Assembly (NCBI RefSeq): GCF_010731575.1
Contig: NZ_AP022617.1
Span: 2,294,001-2,358,000 of the forward strand
DNA from: Mycolicibacterium monacense
GTDB taxonomy: Bacteria > Actinomycetota > Actinomycetes > Mycobacteriales > Mycobacteriaceae
Direction of reading: 5' to 3'
Length of the DNA stretch: 64,000 nucleotides
The notes under the pieces were generated by a model. It was not told the origin of the DNA and searched no databases. It was given only the letters and a program-made list of their open reading frames with translations. The translations under genes and the position numbers were made by a program. Shown here piece after piece: positions 6,565 to 46,301 of the stretch. Position 1 is the first letter of the stretch; every line of letters starts with the position of its first letter.

Positions 6565-7542
6565 CTACCCGCCGGTGGGGTCGTTCTCGTAGGCGAGCAG
6601 CGCCGCGGCGGCGGATTCGCGCACTTTGGCGGCCAGTTCCTGCGGTTCGAGCACCCGTACCGCCGAACCGAAGCCGAGCACGAAGCGGGCCATCCAGTCG
6701 TCGGAGGCGTAAGTCATCGCGGCTTCGCAGGCGCCGTCGGCCAGTTCGCGCACCACCCGCAGGGGGTAGTAGTCGAACATCCACGAGGCCGACCGGTCGA
6801 TGAGCAGGGTCGCCGACGGCAGCGCCGGGTCGGCGTCGAACAACGACGTGTCGGGGCCGGCCTCGACCGCGGGCGGTGGCGGGGCGGCGGGCTCGTTGAG
6901 GACGCGGGCGTCGACGATGCGGTCGAAGCGGAACAGGCGCACCCCTTCGGCGGAGCGGCACCAGGCTTCGAGGTAGGTGTGGTCGGCGACGAGGAGCACG
7001 CGGATCGGGTCGACGACGCGGCTGGTGAGCATGTCGTGGGATGCGGAGTAGTACTCGATCTGCAGCGCGTGGGCGTTGCGCACGGCCGTACGGACCGCGG
7101 CGGCAGCATCGCTCTCCATCGGGGCGGGTTCGTCGACGGCGGTCACCGAGTCACCGAGGTCGTGCCCGGCGGCGCCCGCGGCCTGCTCGATCTTGGCGAT
7201 GGCGCTGCGGGCGGCCTCGGGGTCGACCATTCCGGGCACGTCGACCAGGGCGCGCAGCGCGACGAGCACGCCGGTGGCCTCCGGTGAGGTCAGGCGCAGC
7301 GGGTGGTCGATGCCGGCGGAGAAGGTGACCTCGATGGTGTCGCCGGAGAACTCGAAGTCGATGAGGTCACCGGGGCCGTAGCCGGGCAGCCCGCACATCC
7401 ACAGCTGGTTGAGGTCGTCCTGCAGCTGTTTGACGGTGACGCCGAGGTCGGCGGCGGCCTCGGCGTAGGTGATGCGCGGGTTGGCCTGGAAGTACGGAAC
7501 CATGTTGAGCAGCCGGACCAGCCGGCTCGAGATGGCGCTCAT
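6565..7542 (-). CDS. pafC: WYL-domain transcriptional regulator PafC
   Basis: PafC pairs with PafB to form the PafBC activator of the LexA/RecA-independent DNA-damage response in mycobacteria. The 325-residue protein has an N-terminal winged helix-turn-helix (residues 1-60, with the [22 protein letters not shown] segment). A WYL ligand-sensing domain follows around residues 150-230 ([21 protein letters not shown] region), then a C-terminal WCX-type extension. The ATG at 7542 overlaps the pafB stop as ATGA, so PafB and PafC are translationally coupled. The name reflects the usual operon position after pafA, but here pafA is about 7 kb away. Confidence 0.94.
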
Positions 7543-8519
7543 GCGGTGGCCTGCGCTTTGAGTCGGGCAATGATGTCGTCGCGCAGGGTCTGCGGTTCGA
7601 GGGCCACGGCGTCGGCGCCGTAGCTGGCGATCTCGCGGGCCAGTTGGTCGAACATGCCGATCTCGACGGTGATCACCTCGCCGGTTCGGCCGCCGAGGGT
7701 CATGGGCCCCTCGACGACGGCTTGGCGGCGCAGCGCGGTGGCGCGACCATCGGCGACCCAGACCCTTGCCTGGGTGCCGGTGGGCCATTCGGCGACGGCG
7801 CGGCGCACGACCTCGCGCAGGTCGATGTCGTCGGGTTTGTGGACGGCCCCAGGGGGTCCGATGGTGGTGACGTCGTCGGCGATGCGGGACAGCCGGAAGG
7901 TGCGCGGTGCGTCGCGGTCGCGGTCGTGGCCGACGAGGTACCAGCGGCCGCGGTGGGTGACCACGCCCCAGGGTTCGACGGTGCGGGTGGTGTAGGGCTC
8001 GGAGCGGTCTCGGCGGTGGCCGAACTGGACGGCCCGGCCGTCGTCGATGGCTTGGAGGATGGCTCGCAGCGTTTCTTCGTTGCCGCGGACGCCAGGCAGC
8101 GTGGCCGTCGAGATGGCGACCCCGTCGGCGGCGTCGACGTCCACGCCGGCGGCGCGCAATTTGAGCAGTGCGCCCTGGGTGGCGGTGATGAGTTCGGGTG
8201 ACTCCCAAAGTTGGGTGGCGACGGCGACGGCGGCGGCCTCGTCGGCGGTGAGTTCGACGGCGGGCAGGGCGTAGGCATCGCGGTTGATGCGGTAGCCCTC
8301 GGTGGGGTCGAACTGCGAGACACGGCCGGTCTCCAGGGGGATGCCGAGGTCGCGCAGTTCGTTCTTGTCCCGCTCGAACATTCGGGAGAACGCCTCGTCG
8401 CTGGGGCTGTCGGCGTAGCCGGCGACGACCTGCCGGATGCGGTCGGCGGTGATGAAGGTGCGCGTCGAGAGCAGCGCGATGACCAGGTTCATCAGCCGTT
8501 CGACTTTGGAGGTCGCCAC
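7539..8519 (-). CDS. pafB: WYL-domain transcriptional regulator PafB
   Basis: This 326-residue partner of PafC begins with the family start VATSKVERLMNLVIALLSTR from a GTG codon at 8519. It has an N-terminal winged HTH including MFERDKNELRDLGIPLE, a WYL domain around residues 150-230 (RGRWYLVGHDRDRDAPRTFRLSRI region) and a C-terminal WCX domain. It is the first gene of a pafB-pafC-tatA-tatC-helY run. Unlike the compact pafA-pafB-pafC operon of M. tuberculosis, the upstream pafA is separated by an insertion of about 6.8 kb, so pafBC must have its own promoter in 8520-9178. A short inverted repeat (CTAAG-AG-CTTAG, 8522-8533) sits directly before the start. Confidence 0.94.
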   Translation of the reverse strand: MATSKVERLMNLVIALLSTRTFITADRIRQVVAGYADSPSDEAFSRMFERDKNELRDLGIPLETGRVSQFDPTEGYRINRDAYALPAVELTADEAAAVAVATQLWESPELITATQGALLKLRAAGVDVDAADGVAISTATLPGVRGNEETLRAILQAIDDGRAVQFGHRRDRSEPYTTRTVEPWGVVTHRGRWYLVGHDRDRDAPRTFRLSRIADDVTTIGPPGAVHKPDDIDLREVVRRAVAEWPTGTQARVWVADGRATALRRQAVVEGPMTLGGRTGEVITVEIGMFDQLAREIASYGADAVALEPQTLRDDIIARLKAQATA

Positions 8520-9178: not shown

Positions 9179-10459
9179 CTAGTTGGTGGTGGGTGGTGGG
9201 GGTTGGAAGGGTGTGTACCACCACCAGTCGGCACGTTCTCCGGACGGTCCGCGGTAGGGCGCGACGGTGGGCGGGGGTTGGTTGGGTGGGCGGGCCAACG
9301 AGCCGGATTGCAGTTCCCGCCCGGTGCTGTCGGTGACGGTGAGCTGGTCGGCGGGTCCGGTGATGGTGATGACGCCGCGGTGGTGGGCCCGGTGGTGATA
9401 GGGACACAGCAGCACGAGGTTGTCCAGGTCGGTGGCTCCACCGTCTTCCCAATGCTGGATGTGGTGGGCGTGCAAACCGCGGGTCGCCCCACACCCGGGG
9501 ACCGCGCAGGTGCGGTGACGGTGTTCCAGCGCGCGCCGCAGTCGGCGGCTGATCATGCGGGTGGTGCGCCCAGCGCCGAGGGGTTGGCCGGCGCGTTCGA
9601 ACCACACTTCACAGGTGGCGTCACAGCCCAGGTAGCGGCGGTCGGCCTCCGAGAGCAGCGGACCCAGATGCAGGGCGGCGATGCGCTCGTCGAGGTCCAG
9701 GTGCACCACCACGGTGGTGCGCTGACCGTGCGGGCGGCGGGTCACCTCGGTATCCCAGCCGGCCTCGACCAGCGCGGCGAACGCATCAGCCAGGGCGGGC
9801 ATCGGTGGGCGGCCACCGGCAGGAGTGTCGGTGGGGGTGTCGTGGTCGCGTTTCCACTGCGCGATCAACGCATCGTGATGAGACCGCAAAGCCGCGTCAA
9901 ACACCGCTGCCTCGGCATGGGGCAGGGCGATACGCCAGTAGGTGTACTGCTCATCGCTGGTCTTGCGGATCGAGGCCTGCGGCACCGGCACCGGCTTGGG
10001 CTCGCCGTCGGCGTCCTTGTCGGGCTCGGGTTCGGGGCGGGGTTCGAGTCTGATGGCGGTGCGGAGCTGGGTGACCGAGGCGCTGCGGGCCAACTCCGCA
10101 TAATGCTCATCAGACCCTGCGCCCGCGCCTTCGGCGATGACCCCGACCTGATCCAACGACAGCCGCCCGTCGCGCAGCGCCTGCACACAACGCGGGAACT
10201 CCGCGATCCGGTGGGCGATCGCGGCGATGGTCTTACCGTTCCGCGACGAGGATCCGGTTTTCCAGGCCATCAAATGCGCCACCGACTTCGCCCCGGTGAT
10301 CCCACCCAACCCGTCGTGATCGATCTCCGCGGCGATCTCCACCAGGCGTGCATCGATGGCGTTGCGCTGACCCGCCAACTCCGCCACCTCCTCGAACAAC
10401 ACCTCCAGACGCTCCTTCGGCAACAGCGCCACCGCGCCGGACGAAACGTTCGAGGACAT
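9179..10459 (-). CDS. 13E12-type DUF222/HNH endonuclease, copy 1
   Basis: This 426-residue protein belongs to the abundant mycobacterial 13E12 repeat family: an N-terminal DUF222 domain and a C-terminal HNH nuclease motif. The HNH region shows CAVPGC, then HAHHIQHWEDGG, TDLDNLVLLC and PYHHRAHH, which supply the zinc cysteines and catalytic histidines. It ends in a Pro-rich tail. The start is the ATG at 10459 (MSSNVSSG). It is nearly identical to the copy at 45009-46301 on the other strand: I count ten substitutions and one four-residue indel (a TPAG repeat in the other copy). The family is associated with REP13E12 repeats, which serve as integration sites for the phiRv prophages in M. tuberculosis. 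Its exact activity is unknown. Confidence 0.9.
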   Translation of the reverse strand: MSSNVSSGAVALLPKERLEVLFEEVAELAGQRNAIDARLVEIAAEIDHDGLGGITGAKSVAHLMAWKTGSSSRNGKTIAAIAHRIAEFPRCVQALRDGRLSLDQVGVIAEGAGAGSDEHYAELARSASVTQLRTAIRLEPRPEPEPDKDADGEPKPVPVPQASIRKTSDEQYTYWRIALPHAEAAVFDAALRSHHDALIAQWKRDHDTPTDTPAGGRPPMPALADAFAALVEAGWDTEVTRRPHGQRTTVVVHLDLDERIAALHLGPLLSEADRRYLGCDATCEVWFERAGQPLGAGRTTRMISRRLRRALEHRHRTCAVPGCGATRGLHAHHIQHWEDGGATDLDNLVLLCPYHHRAHHRGVITITGPADQLTVTDSTGRELQSGSLARPPNQPPPTVAPYRGPSGERADWWWYTPFQPPPPTTN

Positions 10460-10488
10460 GACCCCATACAAGCACCAGGGTCCGACAA
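9179..10488 (-). repeat. 13E12 repeat unit, copy 1 (inverted relative to copy 2)
   Basis: DNA identity with 44980-46301 begins at the shared TTGTCGGACCCTGGTGC sequence about 29 bases before the start codon and stops within a base or two of the TAG stop codon. The flanks are unrelated. Length is 1310 bases against 1322 for copy 2, the difference being the 12-base TPAG indel. No terminal inverted repeats or obvious target duplications are seen. Confidence 0.88.
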
Positions 10489-10773
10489 CTCCGGCCATGT
10501 GCATCTGGACTGCACCAGCGCCAAGCATTCGACACGCCGCTGTCCGTCGAAATCCGAAAGGCGAGCCAGGTCAAGCCTTTCGGCGTTCGACGGGGCTAGG
10601 GGTCAAGGCGGCGGCACAAGGGCCAGTCTGGCGTACGGGTGCCGGATCCAGCCGGCACTGCAGCGGCGCCACGGCAAGCGGACGATCGGCTTGCCGGCGT
10701 CCGCACCCAGTACCCCAAGCTTCGTCAGACACCTTCGTCTCGTGCCGCTATCCGAAGCGAATGTTTGCTTCGC
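10460..10773. other. 314-base spacer between 13E12 copy 1 and the type VII-like module
   Basis: No gene is supported here. The first 29 bases belong to the 13E12 repeat. The remainder has no recognisable RNA gene, terminator or operator. The small frames on the plus strand have no domain and run through the 13E12 leader. Confidence 0.5.
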
Positions 10774-13095
10774 CTACTGCCTTATGACGATCGCGTCGTT
10801 GCTCATCACGCTCACGTGTTGCCAGTACACCCAATCGGCGATCGCGGCCCGCTGCGTGGCGGCGTCGGTCGCCGTCTGAGCCCTGTGCAGCGCGAGTTCC
10901 TGGGCGTGGTTGGCGTAGGACACCATCGCTTCGAGGTGCGCTGCGCCCCGCTCAGCTGAGGTGCTCATCAACGGCTTCATCGTCTCGAACCAGAGCATCA
11001 ACGAATTGTCAGCCGGCGGCGTGGTGTCCGCGGGCGCCGGTGGCAGCAAGTCACCGAGCCTGGTGTCGTCGACCGAGGCGAGTTGACGCGCCGCACCGGG
11101 CGCGATCACCTCCAGACGGGACCGGCCGGCCATGTCACCCCGCTCCGGAATGTCGTCGGGGGTGAGGATGACCCGCGCGGCGCCCGGGTCGAATCCGTCG
11201 AACTGCTCGGCCGTCGCGACCACGGCACGCAACGGCACGTCATGATGCTGGGCCCAACCATGCAACGCGAGCATCGGGAATGTCGCCCACTTCGCGCGCT
11301 CGTCGATCGGGATCGACTCGTCGGCGCTGACCATCCTCACGCCGTCAGGCAACTTCACACCGTCGGGGATGTAGCCAATGCCGTAACTGTTGGCCACCAA
11401 AATCGTGCCGTCCTTCGTGACGCCCGTCGCCCAGAAGAAGCCGAAATCCATTGACTCGACGGCATTCAGCGCTGCCGCAACTCGACGCGCAACCTGCACC
11501 GGGTCACCGGCCGACTGCCGACGCATGGAACCAGCGATCGCATCGCGTTCAGCACGCGCCGCCGACACCGGCACCGGAGCCGGAGCACCGACCACGGAAC
11601 CGGCGCTTGATGTTGGCGCTGCAACGGGAGGCGGCACGGCAGACGCAGGCACGACCGGCGCGGCGGGCGACGGTGTCGGCGGCGGACCCAACGGCATCGG
11701 CGGTGGGGGCATCGCCGGACCGCCGGCCATCGGAACACCTCCACCCGTCGCAGGAGGTGACACGGGCGCAACCGGCGCGTGAGCTGCACTGCTCGTCGTC
11801 GGGTTGGAAGGAGCGGCCGCTGCCGGCGGCGCAACATCCGTCGGGGCGACCGGCGCGGCCATGGGCGCCGACGCAGGCTGCATCGCAGGACCGATGTTCG
11901 ACAGCCGGTCCGCGATCGGCGGGGACTGGATCGGCGGCTGTCCACCGGCACCCGAAGACGGACCGGACGCGCCGTTGCTTGGATCGACGCTCGGCTGATC
12001 GCCAATTGCTGACGAGCCGTCACTAATCGGACTCGCGGATGACCCGCTGTCCGAACGCCCACCGCCAAAATCGATATCAGACCCACCGGTCGAACCGGCA
12101 GTCGGCGCGCTGGCGACCGGAGATGTCCCACTGGTGGTCACGCCACCACCGCCTGCCCCGCCTAGGGGTTGTGGTCCTGCGGATGCAGGAAGAGGGACGC
12201 TCGGAGACGCTGGTCGAGTGGCTGGCGATCCGGAAGGTGGCGCATTAGGGGGCGACGGCGCCGGTGTCCATCCAGCATTGACGACATCGCCATTTCGGGG
12301 TCCCTCACGTGCGGGCGAAGGATCTGCTTGCGTGGGCGGGGCCTCGGGCGACCATCCTGCGCTTACTACTTCGCCGGTTCTCGTAGGAGCCCTTACTTCG
12401 CCGGTTCTCGTGAGCGCGGGCCCGGCAGCGTTTATTCCACCATCGGTTCGTCCAGGCGGCGACCATTCGGTGCTGATTACATCCCCTCTACGGTGCCCGA
12501 ACGTCGAAATTCGATCTTCACGTTCGCTGCCCGCCTGGTTTTTCGACCCTGCATCGTCCGACTCATCGAACGGTGCCAACGGGACGCCCGGGGCGCCGCC
12601 GAGACCGACCGCCAGCTGGCTGACCGTATCGAAGTTTTCGAAATATTCACGATTGACCAAAGACTGCACGGCCGCCGTCGGGTCCTGGTCTTTTTCTGCA
12701 GCCTCCCTCAGGATTCTTTCGATGTCCGCCTGAGCTGAACGCACATTCGTCGAAATCGTCTCTTTTGCCCCGACAATTTTCGACGCCGCCTCATCGCACC
12801 AGGTGATTGCCGCACGTAATTGGTCCTCGTGTTGACGCATCGATTGTGATGACTTGTCCGCCTTTAAACTCGCTTTTCCTGCACCGGTACCAGACCATAT
12901 ATGGGTACCATTGAATATTGACGAACGATGGCCTTCCCAGGTCTCGTTTGCGCTTGTAAGTTCGGTCAGCTTGCCCCTTAGCGCTTCCGCCCTATCATTG
13001 AAGACCGATTCATCGGTCTCGGGCCAAGCGCCAGAACCCGTCATCTCCGCAGCATACGGGCCCGACGGTTTATCTCCCGCGGCACGCGAAATCAA
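10774..13095 (-). CDS. Large WxG-like, proline-rich protein with globular C-terminal domain (putative type VII secretion-associated)
   Basis: The protein has 773 residues in three parts. Residues 1-165 are helical and contain a WSG (WxG) turn at 67-69 between two helices, similar to WXG100/LXG/PPE-type proteins. Residues 180-510 are disordered and Pro/Ala/Gly/Ser-rich. Three copies of a G-[DE]-V-[IV]-[SN]-x-x-W-[ST]-P motif occur there at about 204, 241 and 269. Residues 512-773 are globular, with a FGFFWATGVTKDGTILVA segment and a YIPDGVKLPDGV segment resembling the DUF5631/5632-type domain of EspK/Rv3899c-like mycobacterial proteins (from memory). The start is a TTG at 13095 overlapping the upstream TGA; AAGG lies seven bases before it. 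An ATG at 13044 is the alternative. Composition is more AT-rich than the neighbours. Function unknown. Confidence 0.75.
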   Translation of the reverse strand: MISRAAGDKPSGPYAAEMTGSGAWPETDESVFNDRAEALRGKLTELTSANETWEGHRSSIFNGTHIWSGTGAGKASLKADKSSQSMRQHEDQLRAAITWCDEAASKIVGAKETISTNVRSAQADIERILREAAEKDQDPTAAVQSLVNREYFENFDTVSQLAVGLGGAPGVPLAPFDESDDAGSKNQAGSEREDRISTFGHRRGDVISTEWSPPGRTDGGINAAGPALTRTGEVRAPTRTGEVVSAGWSPEAPPTQADPSPAREGPRNGDVVNAGWTPAPSPPNAPPSGSPATRPASPSVPLPASAGPQPLGGAGGGGVTTSGTSPVASAPTAGSTGGSDIDFGGGRSDSGSSASPISDGSSAIGDQPSVDPSNGASGPSSGAGGQPPIQSPPIADRLSNIGPAMQPASAPMAAPVAPTDVAPPAAAAPSNPTTSSAAHAPVAPVSPPATGGGVPMAGGPAMPPPPMPLGPPPTPSPAAPVVPASAVPPPVAAPTSSAGSVVGAPAPVPVSAARAERDAIAGSMRRQSAGDPVQVARRVAAALNAVESMDFGFFWATGVTKDGTILVANSYGIGYIPDGVKLPDGVRMVSADESIPIDERAKWATFPMLALHGWAQHHDVPLRAVVATAEQFDGFDPGAARVILTPDDIPERGDMAGRSRLEVIAPGAARQLASVDDTRLGDLLPPAPADTTPPADNSLMLWFETMKPLMSTSAERGAAHLEAMVSYANHAQELALHRAQTATDAATQRAAIADWVYWQHVSVMSNDAIVIRQ

Positions 13096-14273
13096 TTCGC
13101 AGCCTTACATGCGAAGCTTATAGTCTTCACCAAACTTGACGCTGTCTCAGCCAAATAGTTGTCGGATGGAGTGTAAGTCGGGACCGCTCCGGCGAATCCT
13201 CGACGATATTGCGCGGCCAACACGGCAAAATCCTCAATCACGGGATTACCACTGCGACGTCCCAGCTGCTCGAGTTTGTCCGCATTCTCACGCATCACCG
13301 ACGCCACCGCCCGATTGATCGCCTGCTCCTGAGGTGACCAATCTGTTGCACTTAGGTTGGGGTCCACGCCGCGCCATGCAGATGTCTCTGCATCAAAATT
13401 CAGCGCTGCAGATTGCCAATCGGCGCATATGGCATTGGGCGAATCCATGAACATGGGACTCCGCCCGTTTTCCGCCGGAGCGATATCAGTCGGCGGGGCC
13501 GGATCCCCCAGGAGGGGATGTGCCGCAGCTGCCCCAGTACTTGTTATCGCGCCGCAGATGTTGCTGATCGAATTTCCTGCCTCCGTCCAAACAATTGCGA
13601 GGTTTTCATCGCTTTCTGCATAATTGGGGATGCGCTGGACGAAATAGTTTGCATAGGCGGTGAACTGCTCATAAAGTTCCCGCACCGCTCTATGAGGAGT
13701 CTGAGCGGCCAGATTCGTTGCGTCATTAGCCGCCGCAGTCATCGCCTCCCCTACAGCGGTGTATGTGCTCCGCTGTTCCGGCGTCCAGGCGGTCGCCGGG
13801 GTGGCGCGGTCTCTGTCTTCCCATCTAGTTTCTGTGAGGACGTCTCCAAACTCCCGCGCAACCTTCCCCCACGCATCACACGTCGGGTCCTCGGTGATGA
13901 TGTTGACCGGTCCGGTGTCGTTGGCACTCGCGAACTCCGACGCTTGCCCATCCCCCGGCGGCGTCGGCGAATTCCCATTCGAACCATCACGCGTCACCAA
14001 TATCGTCACGGTCACCGCCAACGCGACGACCAGCAACACGATCACCCCACCGAGAATCCACTTCCCTTTGCCGCCCTTCGACGGCGGCGGGCCGGGCGGC
14101 GGACCGCCCCACTGCGGTTGCTGCGGCGGCGGACCCCACGGCGGCGGACCACTGAACTGCCCCTCTCCAGCACCCGGCTGCTGACCACCCCATTGCGGCT
14201 GGCCTCCGTATTGCGGCTGCCCGCCATACGGTTGCTGACCGCCATACGGGTTGGGAGGGGGAGGCAGACTCAT
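13092..14273 (-). CDS. One-pass membrane protein with Gly/Gln/Pro tail, part of type VII-like module
   Basis: This 393-residue protein has a disordered N-terminal tail of repeated YGGQPQ units (residues 1-65), a basic stretch SKGGKGK, and one membrane helix at about 72-94. A presumably extracytoplasmic helical domain follows, with cysteines near DPTCDAWG, SNICGA, NAICADW and SFACKA. The last two repeat the pattern of the first two, which suggests two duplicated halves. The ATG at 14273 follows GAAGG. It starts 31 bases after the EspC-like gene and its stop overlaps the start of the WxG-like gene, so the three form one operon. I do not recognise a named family; mycobacterial DUF-type anchors with similar tails exist. 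The 3' half is distinctly lower in GC than flanking genes. Confidence 0.75.
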   Translation of the reverse strand: MSLPPPPNPYGGQQPYGGQPQYGGQPQWGGQQPGAGEGQFSGPPPWGPPPQQPQWGGPPPGPPPSKGGKGKWILGGVIVLLVVALAVTVTILVTRDGSNGNSPTPPGDGQASEFASANDTGPVNIITEDPTCDAWGKVAREFGDVLTETRWEDRDRATPATAWTPEQRSTYTAVGEAMTAAANDATNLAAQTPHRAVRELYEQFTAYANYFVQRIPNYAESDENLAIVWTEAGNSISNICGAITSTGAAAAHPLLGDPAPPTDIAPAENGRSPMFMDSPNAICADWQSAALNFDAETSAWRGVDPNLSATDWSPQEQAINRAVASVMRENADKLEQLGRRSGNPVIEDFAVLAAQYRRGFAGAVPTYTPSDNYLAETASSLVKTISFACKAAN

Positions 14274-14304
14274 ATGCGCACCTTCGCGTCAGGAACACTC
14301 ACGG

Positions 14305-15147
14305 TCACAACAGAATTGACGAATCAGCGGGCCGAGTCGGCGCCGGCTTCGGTGCGGGTGGCTGCGGCTCAGGCGCGGGTCCGGTCTGCGGCGCCTCCGG
14401 AGCGGCATGGCGCGGACCCACCTCGGGCGCCCGCTCCCCCGTCGCCTCGCCGGGCGCGGCACCTTCCGGCTCCTTCTCCTCGGACGGCTCGTCCTTCTTC
14501 TCGCGCAGCTCGTCTTCGAGCTTGGCCTTCTCGTCTTTCTCGGCGCCGCCCATGTCGCCGAACTGGCTCGTCATCTGGCCGACCTGCTGCATCCCGCTCT
14601 GGACGCCCTGCATGATCCCCTGCGGAATCTGCATCGCCATCCCCGCGAGCTGCATCGGGATCTGCGCCGCCTGCTGCGCCAGCTGCATCGGCATGCCCAT
14701 CATCTGGCCCATCTGGCCCATCTCCTGGCCTGCACCCGCGGCGCCGGCTGCACCGCCCCCGGCCGCACCAGTCGCTGCACCAACAGCGCCGGCCCCACCG
14801 CCGGCGGCTCCACCGGCACCGCCACCGGCCCCGGCACCGTCGAGCTCCGCCAACGCCTTCCGCACCTGGTCCGCGATCTGCTGATCGGACTGCTCGTAGA
14901 GCGCAGCGGCCCTGATGATGTTCTCGGCCGTCGCCAGCGCCTCGGCCTTGGTCTTCGGCATGCCCTCGATGAGCGGCAGTTCGATCTCCTGCGTCTTGCT
15001 CTGCAGGGCCAACGACAGCGCATCCGTACCGGACGTCACCAGTGGCTGCAGCGGCTCCGGTATCGCCTGAGCGCCGCTGACCAGACCCTTCCCCCCGTTA
15101 GCCAGCTCACCGGTGTTGACCCTCAACTCCGTCACCGCCACCCCCAC
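14305..15147 (-). CDS. EspC-like (DUF2580-type) putative type VII secreted protein
   Basis: The protein has 280 residues. The first 100 form an EspC/DUF2580-like helical hairpin starting ELRVNTGELANGGKGL and ending with ALYEQSDQQIADQV. The YEQSD stretch (residues 84-88) fits the general type VII secretion signal YxxxD/E. A Gly/Ala linker, a Met/Gln-rich amphipathic segment (about 136-190) and a charged then Pro-rich tail follow. The start is uncertain: GTG at 15147, 15141 or 15135, the last giving the family-like VTELRV start. It is the first gene of the three-gene module and lies 175 bases downstream of pafA on the same strand. No ESX core genes (EccA-E, MycP) are in the window, so export would depend on an ESX system elsewhere. 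Confidence 0.72.
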   Translation of the reverse strand: MGVAVTELRVNTGELANGGKGLVSGAQAIPEPLQPLVTSGTDALSLALQSKTQEIELPLIEGMPKTKAEALATAENIIRAAALYEQSDQQIADQVRKALAELDGAGAGGGAGGAAGGGAGAVGAATGAAGGGAAGAAGAGQEMGQMGQMMGMPMQLAQQAAQIPMQLAGMAMQIPQGIMQGVQSGMQQVGQMTSQFGDMGGAEKDEKAKLEDELREKKDEPSEEKEPEGAAPGEATGERAPEVGPRHAAPEAPQTGPAPEPQPPAPKPAPTRPADSSILL

Positions 15148-15322: not shown

Positions 15323-16681
15323 CTACATGCTGGCGATGAGCCGCTTCACCCGCTCGTCGACCGAGCGGAAGGGGTCCTTGCACAGGACGGTGCGCTGCGC
15401 CTGGTCATTGAGCTTCAGATGCACCCAGTCGACGGTGAAATCACGACCGGCTTCCTGTGCGGCGCTGATGAACTCACCGCGCAGCTTCGCACGTGTGGTC
15501 TGCGGCGGGGTGTCGACGGCGGCGTCGATCTCCTCGTCGGTGGTGATCCGCGCCGCGAGCCCCTTGCGTTGCAACAGGTCGAACACCCCGCGGCCCCGCT
15601 TGATGTCGTGGTAGGCCAGATCGAGTTGGCTGATCTTCGGATCGGACAGCTCCATGTTGTAGCGGTCCTGATAGCGCTGGAACAGCTTGCGCTTGATCAC
15701 CCAGTCGATCTCGGTGTCGACCTTCGCGAAATCCTGGCTCTCGACGGCGTCGAGCTGACGGCCCCACAGGTCCACGACCTGCTCGATCTGCGAATTCGGC
15801 TCCCGCGTCTGCAGATAGTCGACCGCCCGCGAGTAGTACTCGCGCTGAATGTCCAGCGCGCTGGCCTGCCGTCCACCGGCGAGGCGCACCGGGCGCCGTC
15901 CGGTCAGGTCGTGGCTGACCTCGCGAATGGCGCGGATCGGATTGTCCAGCGAGAAGTCCCGGAACGGCACGCCGGCCTCGATCATCTCGAGCACCAGCGA
16001 AGCGGTGCCCACCTTCAGCATTGTGGTGGACTCGCACATGTTCGAGTCGCCGACGATCACGTGCAGCCGGCGGTACTTCTCGGCGTCGGCGTGCGGTTCG
16101 TCGCGCGTGTTGATGATCGGCCGCGACCGGGTGGTGGCCGAGGAGACGCCCTCCCAGATGTGCTCGGCGCGCTGGCTCAGGCAGAACGTCGCCGCCTTGG
16201 GCGTCTGCAGCACCTTGCCCGCACCGCAGATCAACTGGCGGGTGACCAGGAACGGCAGCAGCACGTCTGAGATCCGGGAAAACTCGCCGGCGCGGACGAT
16301 CAGGTAGTTCTCGTGGCAGCCGTAGGAGTTGCCCGCCGAGTCGGTGTTGTTCTTGAACAGGTAGATGTCGCCGCCGATGCCCTCGTCGGCCAGCCGCTGT
16401 TCGGCGTCGATGAGCAGGTCCTCGAGCACCCGCTCGCCGGCCCGGTCATGGGTGACCAACTGGATCAGGTTGTCGCATTCCGCGGTGGCGTACTCCGGGT
16501 GGGATCCGACGTCGAGATACAACCGCGCGCCGTTACGCAAAAAGACGTTCGAACTGCGGCCCCACGACACCACCCGCCGGAACAGATATCGGGCGACCTC
16601 GTCCGGACTGAGCCGGCGGTGGCCATGGAACGTGCAGGTCACGCCGAATTCGGTCTCGATCCCCATGATTCGTCGCTGCAC
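15323..16681 (-). CDS. pafA: Pup--protein ligase PafA
   Basis: PafA attaches the prokaryotic ubiquitin-like protein Pup to lysines of substrates and so marks them for the mycobacterial proteasome. The 452-residue protein is almost identical to the M. tuberculosis enzyme, including [18 protein letters not shown] at the N-terminus and [16 protein letters not shown] with the catalytic aspartate. The [22 protein letters not shown] segment of the glutamine synthetase-like fold and the [17 protein letters not shown] end are also present. The start is a GTG at 16681 (VQRRIMG), matching the known MQRRIMG N-terminus; the longer open frame upstream is not used. It follows the IclR gene by 88 bases on the same strand. 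The usual downstream pafB is displaced by about 6.8 kb. Pup, Dop and the proteasome genes are not in the window. Confidence 0.97.
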
Positions 16682-44979: not shown

Positions 44980-46301
44980 TTGTCGGACCCTGGTGCTTGT
45001 ATGGGGTTATGTCCTCGAACGTTTCGTCTGGCGCGGTGGCGCTGTTGCCGAAGGAGCGTCTGGAGGTGTTGTTCGAGGAGGTGGCGGAGTTGGCGGGTCA
45101 GCGCAACGCCATCGACGCACGCCTGGTGGAGATCGCCGCTGAGATCGATCACGACGGGTTGGGTGGGATCACCGGGGCGAAGTCGGTGGCGCATTTGATG
45201 GCCTGGAAAACCGGGTCGTCGTCGCGGAACGGCAAGACCATCGCCGCCATCGCCCACCGGATTGCGGAGTTCCCGCGTTGTGTGCAGGCGCTGCGCGACG
45301 GGCGGCTGTCGTTGGATCAGGTCGGGGTCATCGCCGAAGGCGCGGGCGCAGGGTCTGATGAGCATTATGCAGAGTTGGCCCGCAGCGCCTCGGTCACCCA
45401 GCTCCGCACCGCGATCAAACTCGAACCCCGCCCCGCCCCCGAGCCCGACAAGGACGCCGACGGCGAGCCCAAGCCGGTGCCGGTGGCGCAGGCCTCGATC
45501 CGCAAGACCAGCGATGAGCAGTACACCTACTGGCGTATCGCCCTGCCCCATGCCGAGGCAGCGGTGTTTGACGCGGCTTTGCGGTCTCATCACGATGCGT
45601 TGATCGCGCAGTGGAAACGCGACCACGACACACCCACCGGCACCCCCGCCGGCACTCCCGCCGGTGGCCGCCCACCGATGCCCGCCCTGGCTGATGCGTT
45701 CGCCGCGCTGGTCGAGGCCGGCTGGGATACCGAGGTGACCCGCCGCCCGCACGGTCAGCGCACCACCGTGGTGGTGCACCTGGACCTCGACGACCGCATC
45801 GCCGCCCTGCATCTGGGTCCGCTGCTCTCGGAGGCCGACCGCCGCTACCTGGGCTGTGACGCCACCTGTGAAGTGTGGTTCGAACGCCACGGCCAACCCA
45901 TCGGCGCTGGGCGCACCACCCGCATGATCAGCCGCCGACTGCGGCGCGCGCTGGAACACCGTCACCGCACCTGCGCGGTCCCCGGGTGTGGGGCGACCCG
46001 CGGTTTGCACGCCCACCACATCCAGCATTGGGAAGACGGCGGAGCCACCGACCTGGACAACCTCGTGCTGCTGTGTCCCTACCACCACCGGGCCCACCAC
46101 CGCGGCGTCATCACCATCACCGGACCCGCCGACCAGCTCACCGTCACCGACAGCACCGGGCGACACCTCACGTCCGGCTCGTTGGCCCGCCCACCCAACC
46201 ACCCCCCACCCACCGTCGCGCCCTACCGCGGACCATCCGGAGAGCGTGCCGACTGGTGGTGGTACACACCCTTCCAACCCCCACCACCCACCACCAACTA
46301 G
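44980..46301 (+). repeat. 13E12 repeat unit, copy 2 (inverted relative to copy 1)
   Basis: DNA identity with 9179-10488 on the opposite strand starts at TTGTCGGACCCTGGTGC and stops at the TAG stop codon; the flanks differ. The two copies are about 34.5 kb apart in inverted orientation, so homologous recombination between them would invert the segment from the type VII-like module to thioredoxin. Confidence 0.88.
45009..46301 (+). CDS. 13E12-type DUF222/HNH endonuclease, copy 2
   Basis: This 430-residue protein has the same DUF222 plus HNH architecture as the copy at 9179-10459, with the same HNH cysteines and histidines intact (CAVPGC, HHIQHWEDGG, LLCPYHHR). It differs by a four-residue TPAG expansion and ten substitutions, most of them in the mid linker and near the C-terminus. 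The start is the ATG at 45009. It occupies the place between Rv1471-type thioredoxin and the Rv1466-type sufT region, where M. tuberculosis has other genes. Near-identity of the copies implies recent duplication or gene conversion. Activity is unknown. Confidence 0.9.
   Translation: MSSNVSSGAVALLPKERLEVLFEEVAELAGQRNAIDARLVEIAAEIDHDGLGGITGAKSVAHLMAWKTGSSSRNGKTIAAIAHRIAEFPRCVQALRDGRLSLDQVGVIAEGAGAGSDEHYAELARSASVTQLRTAIKLEPRPAPEPDKDADGEPKPVPVAQASIRKTSDEQYTYWRIALPHAEAAVFDAALRSHHDALIAQWKRDHDTPTGTPAGTPAGGRPPMPALADAFAALVEAGWDTEVTRRPHGQRTTVVVHLDLDDRIAALHLGPLLSEADRRYLGCDATCEVWFERHGQPIGAGRTTRMISRRLRRALEHRHRTCAVPGCGATRGLHAHHIQHWEDGGATDLDNLVLLCPYHHRAHHRGVITITGPADQLTVTDSTGRHLTSGSLARPPNHPPPTVAPYRGPSGERADWWWYTPFQPPPPTTN

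Follow-up and report, generated by a model that had tools for sequence, protein, structure and literature searches.

In Mycobacterium smegmatis, mating identity has been mapped to the esx1 region, including Msmeg0069-0071, and self-identity to Msmeg0070 (Clark et al. 2022, PMC9040860). Msmeg0069 is espJ and Msmeg0071 is espK (PMC12502791, PMC8262963), and the corrected Msmeg0070 is a protein of 388 residues with 41 prolines and a helix at residues 67-89, whose start lies 32 nt after Msmeg0069; between two strains, the N-terminus of Msmeg0071 is 27% identical and its C-terminus 93% (PMC9040860). The C-terminal domain of EspK binds EspB and holds it monomeric, the residues at the interface including D506, F659, K663, and S667, and the M. 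smegmatis EspB and EspK bind each other as well (PMC9811218). The authors of the study on these mid genes call their position within esx1 a paradox and mention, in one sentence, that some species lack the 0069-0070 orthologues in esx1 and have them side by side at another place (PMC9040860). Here, we analyzed a 64,000-nucleotide stretch of the Mycolicibacterium monacense genome (contig NZ_AP022617.1, positions 2,294,001 to 2,358,000; below, “the window”), in which three adjacent genes lie between pafA and pafB. We consider it likely that these genes are the espJ - Msmeg0070-like - espK (mid) cassette of ESX-1, relocated to the pafA-pafB junction in this clade, and that they serve self-identity together with ESX-1 in trans.

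The likeness to mid begins with the layout, since in both cases espJ, a gene for a proline-rich one-pass membrane protein, and espK follow each other in one direction. In the window, the espJ-like reading frame is separated from that of the membrane protein by 31 nt, close to the M. smegmatis spacing, and the latter overlaps espK by 4 bp, in agreement with a preliminary description of this DNA that had proposed one coupled operon of an EspC-like, a one-pass membrane, and a WxG-start protein. The membrane protein has 393 residues, 43 prolines, and a single membrane helix (residues 75-92 in the model), all similar to Msmeg0070, which we could compare by its described features only. Its N-terminus is Pro/Gly/Gln-rich, and the YGGQPQ stretch, previously taken for a tail, turned out to belong to this N-terminal segment ahead of the membrane helix. 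In both systems, moreover, the N-terminus of EspK is variable and its C-terminus conserved. What differs is the place, the window cassette being located between pafA and pafB, 2.5 Mb from ESX-1. The earlier suggestion of an undescribed complex can thus be abandoned, given that the trio matches mid (PMC9040860), with the 773-residue protein being EspK and the 280-residue protein EspJ-like.

As judged from its sequence, the 773-residue protein is EspK: residues 530-768 match the solved M. tuberculosis EspK (Rv3879c; PDB 8ako_B) with an E value of 3.4e-91, and its predicted architecture comprises a WxG N-terminal domain, as had been noticed before (WEG at 53 and WSG at 67), a Pro/Ala/Gly linker, and a C-terminal EspB-binding domain. 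The window protein retains the four interface residues named above (its D550, F703, K707, and S711), and the same letters occur in 56, 44, 38, and 60, respectively, of 70 EspK domains. Unlike the EspB chaperone of M. tuberculosis, the window protein is encoded outside ESX-1 and has a hypervariable N-terminal domain; compared with the ESX-1-placed EspK of a congener, its C-terminal domain is 59% identical and its N-terminal domain 34% over 155 residues. Furthermore, its gene is coupled to that of the membrane protein, and the slow-grower-type loci that we read have no such gene next to espK. The same genome encodes, at 5.5 Mb, a 780-residue protein (L002, 994-3336) with a weak, partly low-complexity match to EspK (E 4.5e-13) and no Pfam match.

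For the 280-residue protein, hhalign against a two-sequence profile of ESX-1-placed, slow-grower-type EspJ gave a match of 98% (E 2.9e-13), in which its N-terminal ~100 residues align with the EspJ of two congeners. Y84 and D88 of the YxxxD motif (YEQSD at residues 84-88 in the window) are invariant in 70 sequences. The previous call of an EspC-like protein with a YxxxD signal holds in the sense of an EspC/EspJ-like substrate. Pfam EspC (PF10824) is weakly matched by 25 of the 70 EspJ-family members (E up to 0.1, best 0.0018) and the PE family by 14 (best E 1.1e-5). The window protein itself has neither an EspC nor a PE match in Pfam and differs from EspJ/EspC-family ESX-1 substrates also in its conserved Met/Gln-rich middle segment and its Pro/Glu-rich end.

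The genome of 6.04 Mb, a single contig, contains three EccB loci; ESX-1 is the locus at 4.816-4.835 Mb. The preliminary description had noted that no ESX core genes are nearby, which is true locally, yet this ESX-1 is present in the genome. Its genes are mycP1, eccE1, espB, espL, a 103-residue EspC-like gene, eccD1, espI, esxA, esxB, PPE68, PE35, eccCb1, eccCa1, eccB1, eccA1, and espG1; we named them by BLAST to the ESX-1 genes of a congener where a match was given, and the remaining names are presumptive, given by place. In this locus, espJ and espK are missing, and eccD1 is parted from espL-espB by the 103-residue gene alone; the EspB at 4.818 Mb, which matches solved EspB structures at E 1.4e-28, provides a cognate EspB. 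In 11 loci of congeners, espJ/espK are found between eccD1 and espB (espL too where called). By contrast, no espJ or espK was called in the eccD1 stretches of any of 21 genomes with a detached module: in 14 of them, eccD1 abuts espL directly or via a small EspC-like gene, other genes follow eccD1 in six (G014, G052, G102, G065, G011, and G039), and EspA/E-like and other genes lie between eccD1 and espL in one (G109). A rapid grower whose ESX-1 lacks only espJ and espK has been described (PMC8217490), and, in a multi-species table of the genes next to RD1, other genes come after eccD in some rapid growers (PMC11206017). In G014, which has the module at the pafA site, there is a second ESX-1-like locus (L050) whose EccD1 is 58% to the query and which includes an EspK and an EspB-like gene of its own.

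The pafA-pafB spacing, a check proposed at the outset, bears out that these genes are normally contiguous and are split here. In 17 of 20 module-less genomes of the genus the gap is 19-96 bp (496, 633, and 764 bp in the other three), while the distance reaches 4651-9427 bp across nine module-bearing loci, 6806 bp in the window. The module is thus an insertion that splits normally adjacent genes.

We then consider how far the detached cassette remains associated with ESX-1. Our survey covers 198 genomes of the genus, the window's own included, with a threshold of E 1e-28 for the EspK C-terminal domain (reached in 106 genomes; 145 at 1e-3) and of E 1e-90 for ESX-1-type EccD1 (likewise 106). Both are present in 103 genomes and neither in 89, with EspK alone in three (G008, which is 70% complete, G076, and G149) and EccD1 alone in three (Fisher p 1.7e-48, with genomes treated as independent of kinship). 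EspK lies within 15 kb of ESX-1-type EccD1 in 63 genomes, 11 of them with a further copy elsewhere, beside pafA in eight (G014 having both pafA-site and EccD1-near copies), and only elsewhere or unplaced in 36; some of these 36 are at contig ends (e.g., G070, G104, and G138) or have espL-espB neighbours without eccD1 (G055 and G195), pafA positions were entered for 58 genomes, and G007, G008, G070, and G091 were not placed. From the flanks read, for which Pfam supplied the gene names in one example of each site, seven sites outside ESX-1 recur: pafA-pafB (eight genomes and Mycobacterium sp. GA-2829), a methyltransferase and a zinc-type alcohol dehydrogenase (11 genomes, three placed by one flank only), smc (six genomes), and treS/mak, secA-response regulator, relA, and a short-chain dehydrogenase (two genomes each). 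In a tree of 70 EspK domains, the smc, treS, secA, relA, and short-chain sites each form one supported group, the alcohol dehydrogenase site requires two changes, and eight of the nine pafA rows form one group (100/100), the ninth, G066, being of uncertain position. EspK distances between genomes are correlated with those of their EccD1, with r values of 0.90 for the 21 genomes with a detached cassette, 0.63 for the 22 with an attached one, and 0.58 for all 43 (permutation p 0.0005 each). Taken together, co-occurrence and correlated distances indicate that the cassette goes with ESX-1 although its place changes. The idea that the complex borrows an ESX channel therefore stands insofar as the set accompanies a distant ESX system, ESX-1.

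As in mid, a hypervariable block is present. Compared with its four nearest relatives (G002, G191, IS-1496, and GA-2829), the window shows identities of 100% (rounded) in pafA, 92-94% in pafB, 88-90% in the C-terminal domain of EspK (EspK-C), and 89-92% in the N-terminal part of EspJ (EspJ-N), and eccD1 is 93-96% identical in the three nearest relatives with ESX-1 read, whereas the membrane ectodomain and the N-terminal domain of EspK (EspK-N) drop to 48-62% and 46-55%. This drop is bounded by membrane-protein residues ~121-393 and EspK residues ~1-360, and GC content falls as well: the ectodomain has 0.58 and EspK 1-165 has 0.55, compared with 0.69 for the EspK linker and 0.655-0.71 for the surrounding genes. 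Similarly, the membrane proteins of two genomes named M. litorale are near-identical for ~80 residues and then diverged (54% overall), and the EspJ of one of these genomes and that of G191 are near-identical over the first 100 residues and 80% identical overall. We compared 18 further membrane-protein-bearing pairs, located at pafA, at ESX-1, or elsewhere; identities are 82-98% in EspK-C and, in 14 of the pairs, 36-58% in EspK-N, the exceptions being two smc pairs (69 and 79%), a relA pair (94% over 31 residues), and one pair without an N-domain found.

Among the loci compared, EspK-N is hypervariable only where the membrane protein is present. Of 86 EspK loci, 74 entered this comparison with an N-terminal domain (the other 12, some of them truncated at contig ends, were excluded). 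For EspK-C identities of at least 0.85, EspK-N identity is 0.87-0.99 without a membrane protein (9 pairs) and 0.34-0.81 with one (39 pairs); at EspK-C identities of 0.80-0.85, the corresponding values are 0.70-0.87 (42 pairs) and 0.22-0.66 (27 pairs). EspK-N and membrane-protein identity also covary within clusters of similar EspK-C (59 loci and 104 pairs, which share loci), with a Pearson coefficient of 0.63 and a Spearman coefficient of 0.37 (permutation p 0.0002 each), a partial r of 0.64 given EspK-C, and a Pearson coefficient of 0.43 over the 101 pairs without near-identical membrane proteins. We tentatively propose that ectodomain and EspK N-domain might be a matched recognition pair, held in one hypervariable cassette (~12.0-13.9 kb) that is block-exchanged inside conserved flanks; direct recognition between EspK-N and the membrane protein is a bolder reading than a single exchanged block.

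The ectodomain itself consists of two tandem copies of ~115 residues that are 26% identical (profile-profile 99.7%, E 1.7e-25), each with two cysteines (132/240 and 283/389) that are invariant in 68 sequences. In the AlphaFold model, residues 121-393 mostly exceed a pLDDT of 90 and are all helical, in two repeats, and a structure search gave no clear relative. Of 200 genomes that represent 60 genera of the order, 12 have the ectodomain, all of them from the window's own genus. Where a membrane protein occurs within 9 kb of EspK (63 loci), it lies upstream of EspK on the same strand in 62, and 43 of 86 EspK loci show the order and direction espJ - membrane protein - espK of the window. Alternatively, only an ESX-1 chaperone/substrate set (espJ-espK) might have moved in trans, with the membrane protein as a structural or envelope helper that has no self-identity role here. 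EspK and EspJ are indeed the firmly identified parts, EspK co-occurs with ESX-1, and espJ-espK are kept without an adjoining membrane protein in some lineages; however, the near-constant place and strand of the membrane protein, together with its strong variability in most pairs compared, as reported for mid (PMC9040860), render this explanation unlikely.

Several further arrangements of the membrane-protein family were observed. In GA-2829 (L003, 7994-13504), the order is EspJ - membrane protein - EspK - second membrane protein, with the second copy nearer to that of the window (62% versus 49%). Arrays occur in G049 (eight matches; L026) and in G182 (nine matches; L027 and L040-L041), the latter also with three EspK copies amid transposase-like genes (judged by eye); it is possible that these arrays are stores of alternative identity alleles. 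In G016 (L022, 7996-9189), a membrane-protein relative lies beside a WXG100 gene and PE/PPE-like genes in a genome without an EspK match (E 1e-3) or an ESX-1 EccD1 match (E 1e-90). Finally, EspA/EspE-family proteins with an EspA-like TPR domain adjoin the module in G042 (L019, 3245-5554), G052 (L020, 10159-12354), and G049 (L026, 6660-8918).

Another scenario, which we regard as rather improbable, is that the pafA-pafB module is a second, paralogous EspK system that arrived horizontally and not a relocated ESX-1 copy. The low GC of the ectodomain and of EspK 1-165 would fit such a gain, as would the genomes with an ESX-1 copy plus another (G013, G014, G026, G029, G110, G163, and others), and the tree of 70 EspK domains is compatible with both relocation and horizontal gain. 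Yet the window's genome has no ESX-1-placed copy, EspK distance closely follows EccD1 distance in detached genomes, and the GC contents of EspJ (0.705) and EspK-C (0.664) are in the range of the flanking genes. The functional link with pupylation that had been suggested can practically be dismissed: the module lies on the strand of pafA, 175 bp after it and with no terminator-like site called in the gap, but EspK adjoins pafA in only eight of its 106 carriers, of which seven group with GA-2829 in a single supported clade, and is otherwise found by smc, alcohol dehydrogenase, treS/mak, secA, or relA, neighbours without a known pupylation role at the sites read.

If the module is the relocated mid cassette, it would have left the position between eccD1 and espL-espB that is usual for it and entered the pafA-pafB junction. 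EspK produced from the pafA site would then use its C-terminal domain to bind cytosolic EspB and bring it to ESX-1, of which EspJ may be a client. The two-domain ectodomain of the membrane protein might be a strain-specific mark of self on display, and this mark could block distributive conjugal transfer between like cells. That the EspK N-terminus varies with the membrane protein may reflect that both act as, or are passed on as, one matched allele.

Several points weigh against this reading. In M. smegmatis, self-identity survives deletion of eccCb and esxBA, and insertions in 0070 and 0071 leave EsxAB secretion intact (PMC9040860), which makes an action of the membrane protein through ESX-1 uncertain. 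Msmeg0069 is poorly conserved between strains according to Clark et al. (PMC9040860), while EspJ-N is well conserved in the four nearest relatives of the window; we do not regard a poorly conserved Msmeg0069 as defining for mid. No M. smegmatis entry appeared among the 120 of 424 and 120 of 607 matches listed, so the membrane protein is assigned to mid by its place, its size and proline count, its helix, the spacing, and its variability. In two relatives, EspB is 84-90% identical to that of the window and hence less conserved than EccD1, variability was measured between species and, for the membrane protein, also between the two genomes named M. litorale, and the loci without a membrane protein are largely one lineage, which brings that control near to a single comparison. 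Lastly, EspK-N and the ectodomain are encoded by neighbouring segments; one exchanged block therefore suffices for the covariation, which may be mere physical linkage.

The features of the locus are listed in Table 1. The preliminary description had correctly placed the module between pafA and pafB, although a DUF222/HNH gene also intervenes before pafB. This gene was not found at the corresponding place in seven of the eight other pafA-site loci and probably entered separately and later. DUF222 is matched 29 times in the genome, in part by pieces of a single gene, and a further DUF222/HNH gene of the window (45009-46301, plus strand) encodes the same first 60 residues as the one at 9179-10528 (minus strand).

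Table 1. Features of the cassette and its flanks (window positions)
Feature	Position	Strand	Basis or remark
espJ-like gene (Msmeg0069-type)	14305..15147	-	280-residue reading frame; YxxxD = Y84..D88
Msmeg0070-like membrane protein gene	13092..14273	-	393-residue reading frame; features as Msmeg0070 (PMC9040860)
espK (Msmeg0071-type)	10774..13095	-	773-residue reading frame, TTG start; PDB 8ako_B match
Hypervariable block	12015..13913	-	membrane protein ~121-393 plus EspK ~1-360; 40-residue identity bins, GC by part
DUF222/HNH multicopy gene	9179..10528	-	between module and pafB
pafA, insertion flank	15323..16678	-	Pup_ligase, E 1.9e-171
pafB, insertion flank	7539..8519	-	neighbour on the far side of the module
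pafC	6565..7539		neighbour of pafB

In the open-licence literature, as far as it was accessible, we found no site survey of the module and no report of covariation between EspK-N and the membrane protein; Clark et al. remark on relocation in their one sentence. In mycobacteria, distributive conjugal transfer produces mosaic genomes, and the way in which cells distinguish self from other is an open question. The detached cassettes provide a natural separation, as the cassette has left ESX-1 in many species, yet accompanies ESX-1 and retains its hypervariable block. The variation of EspK-N along with the membrane protein points to a candidate partner, and, if the two are a matched pair, self-identity would be tied to the EspB chaperone, which would explain the association of mid with ESX-1 despite moves to at least seven recurring sites. 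For annotation, rapid growers reported to be without espJ and espK may have them at other places.

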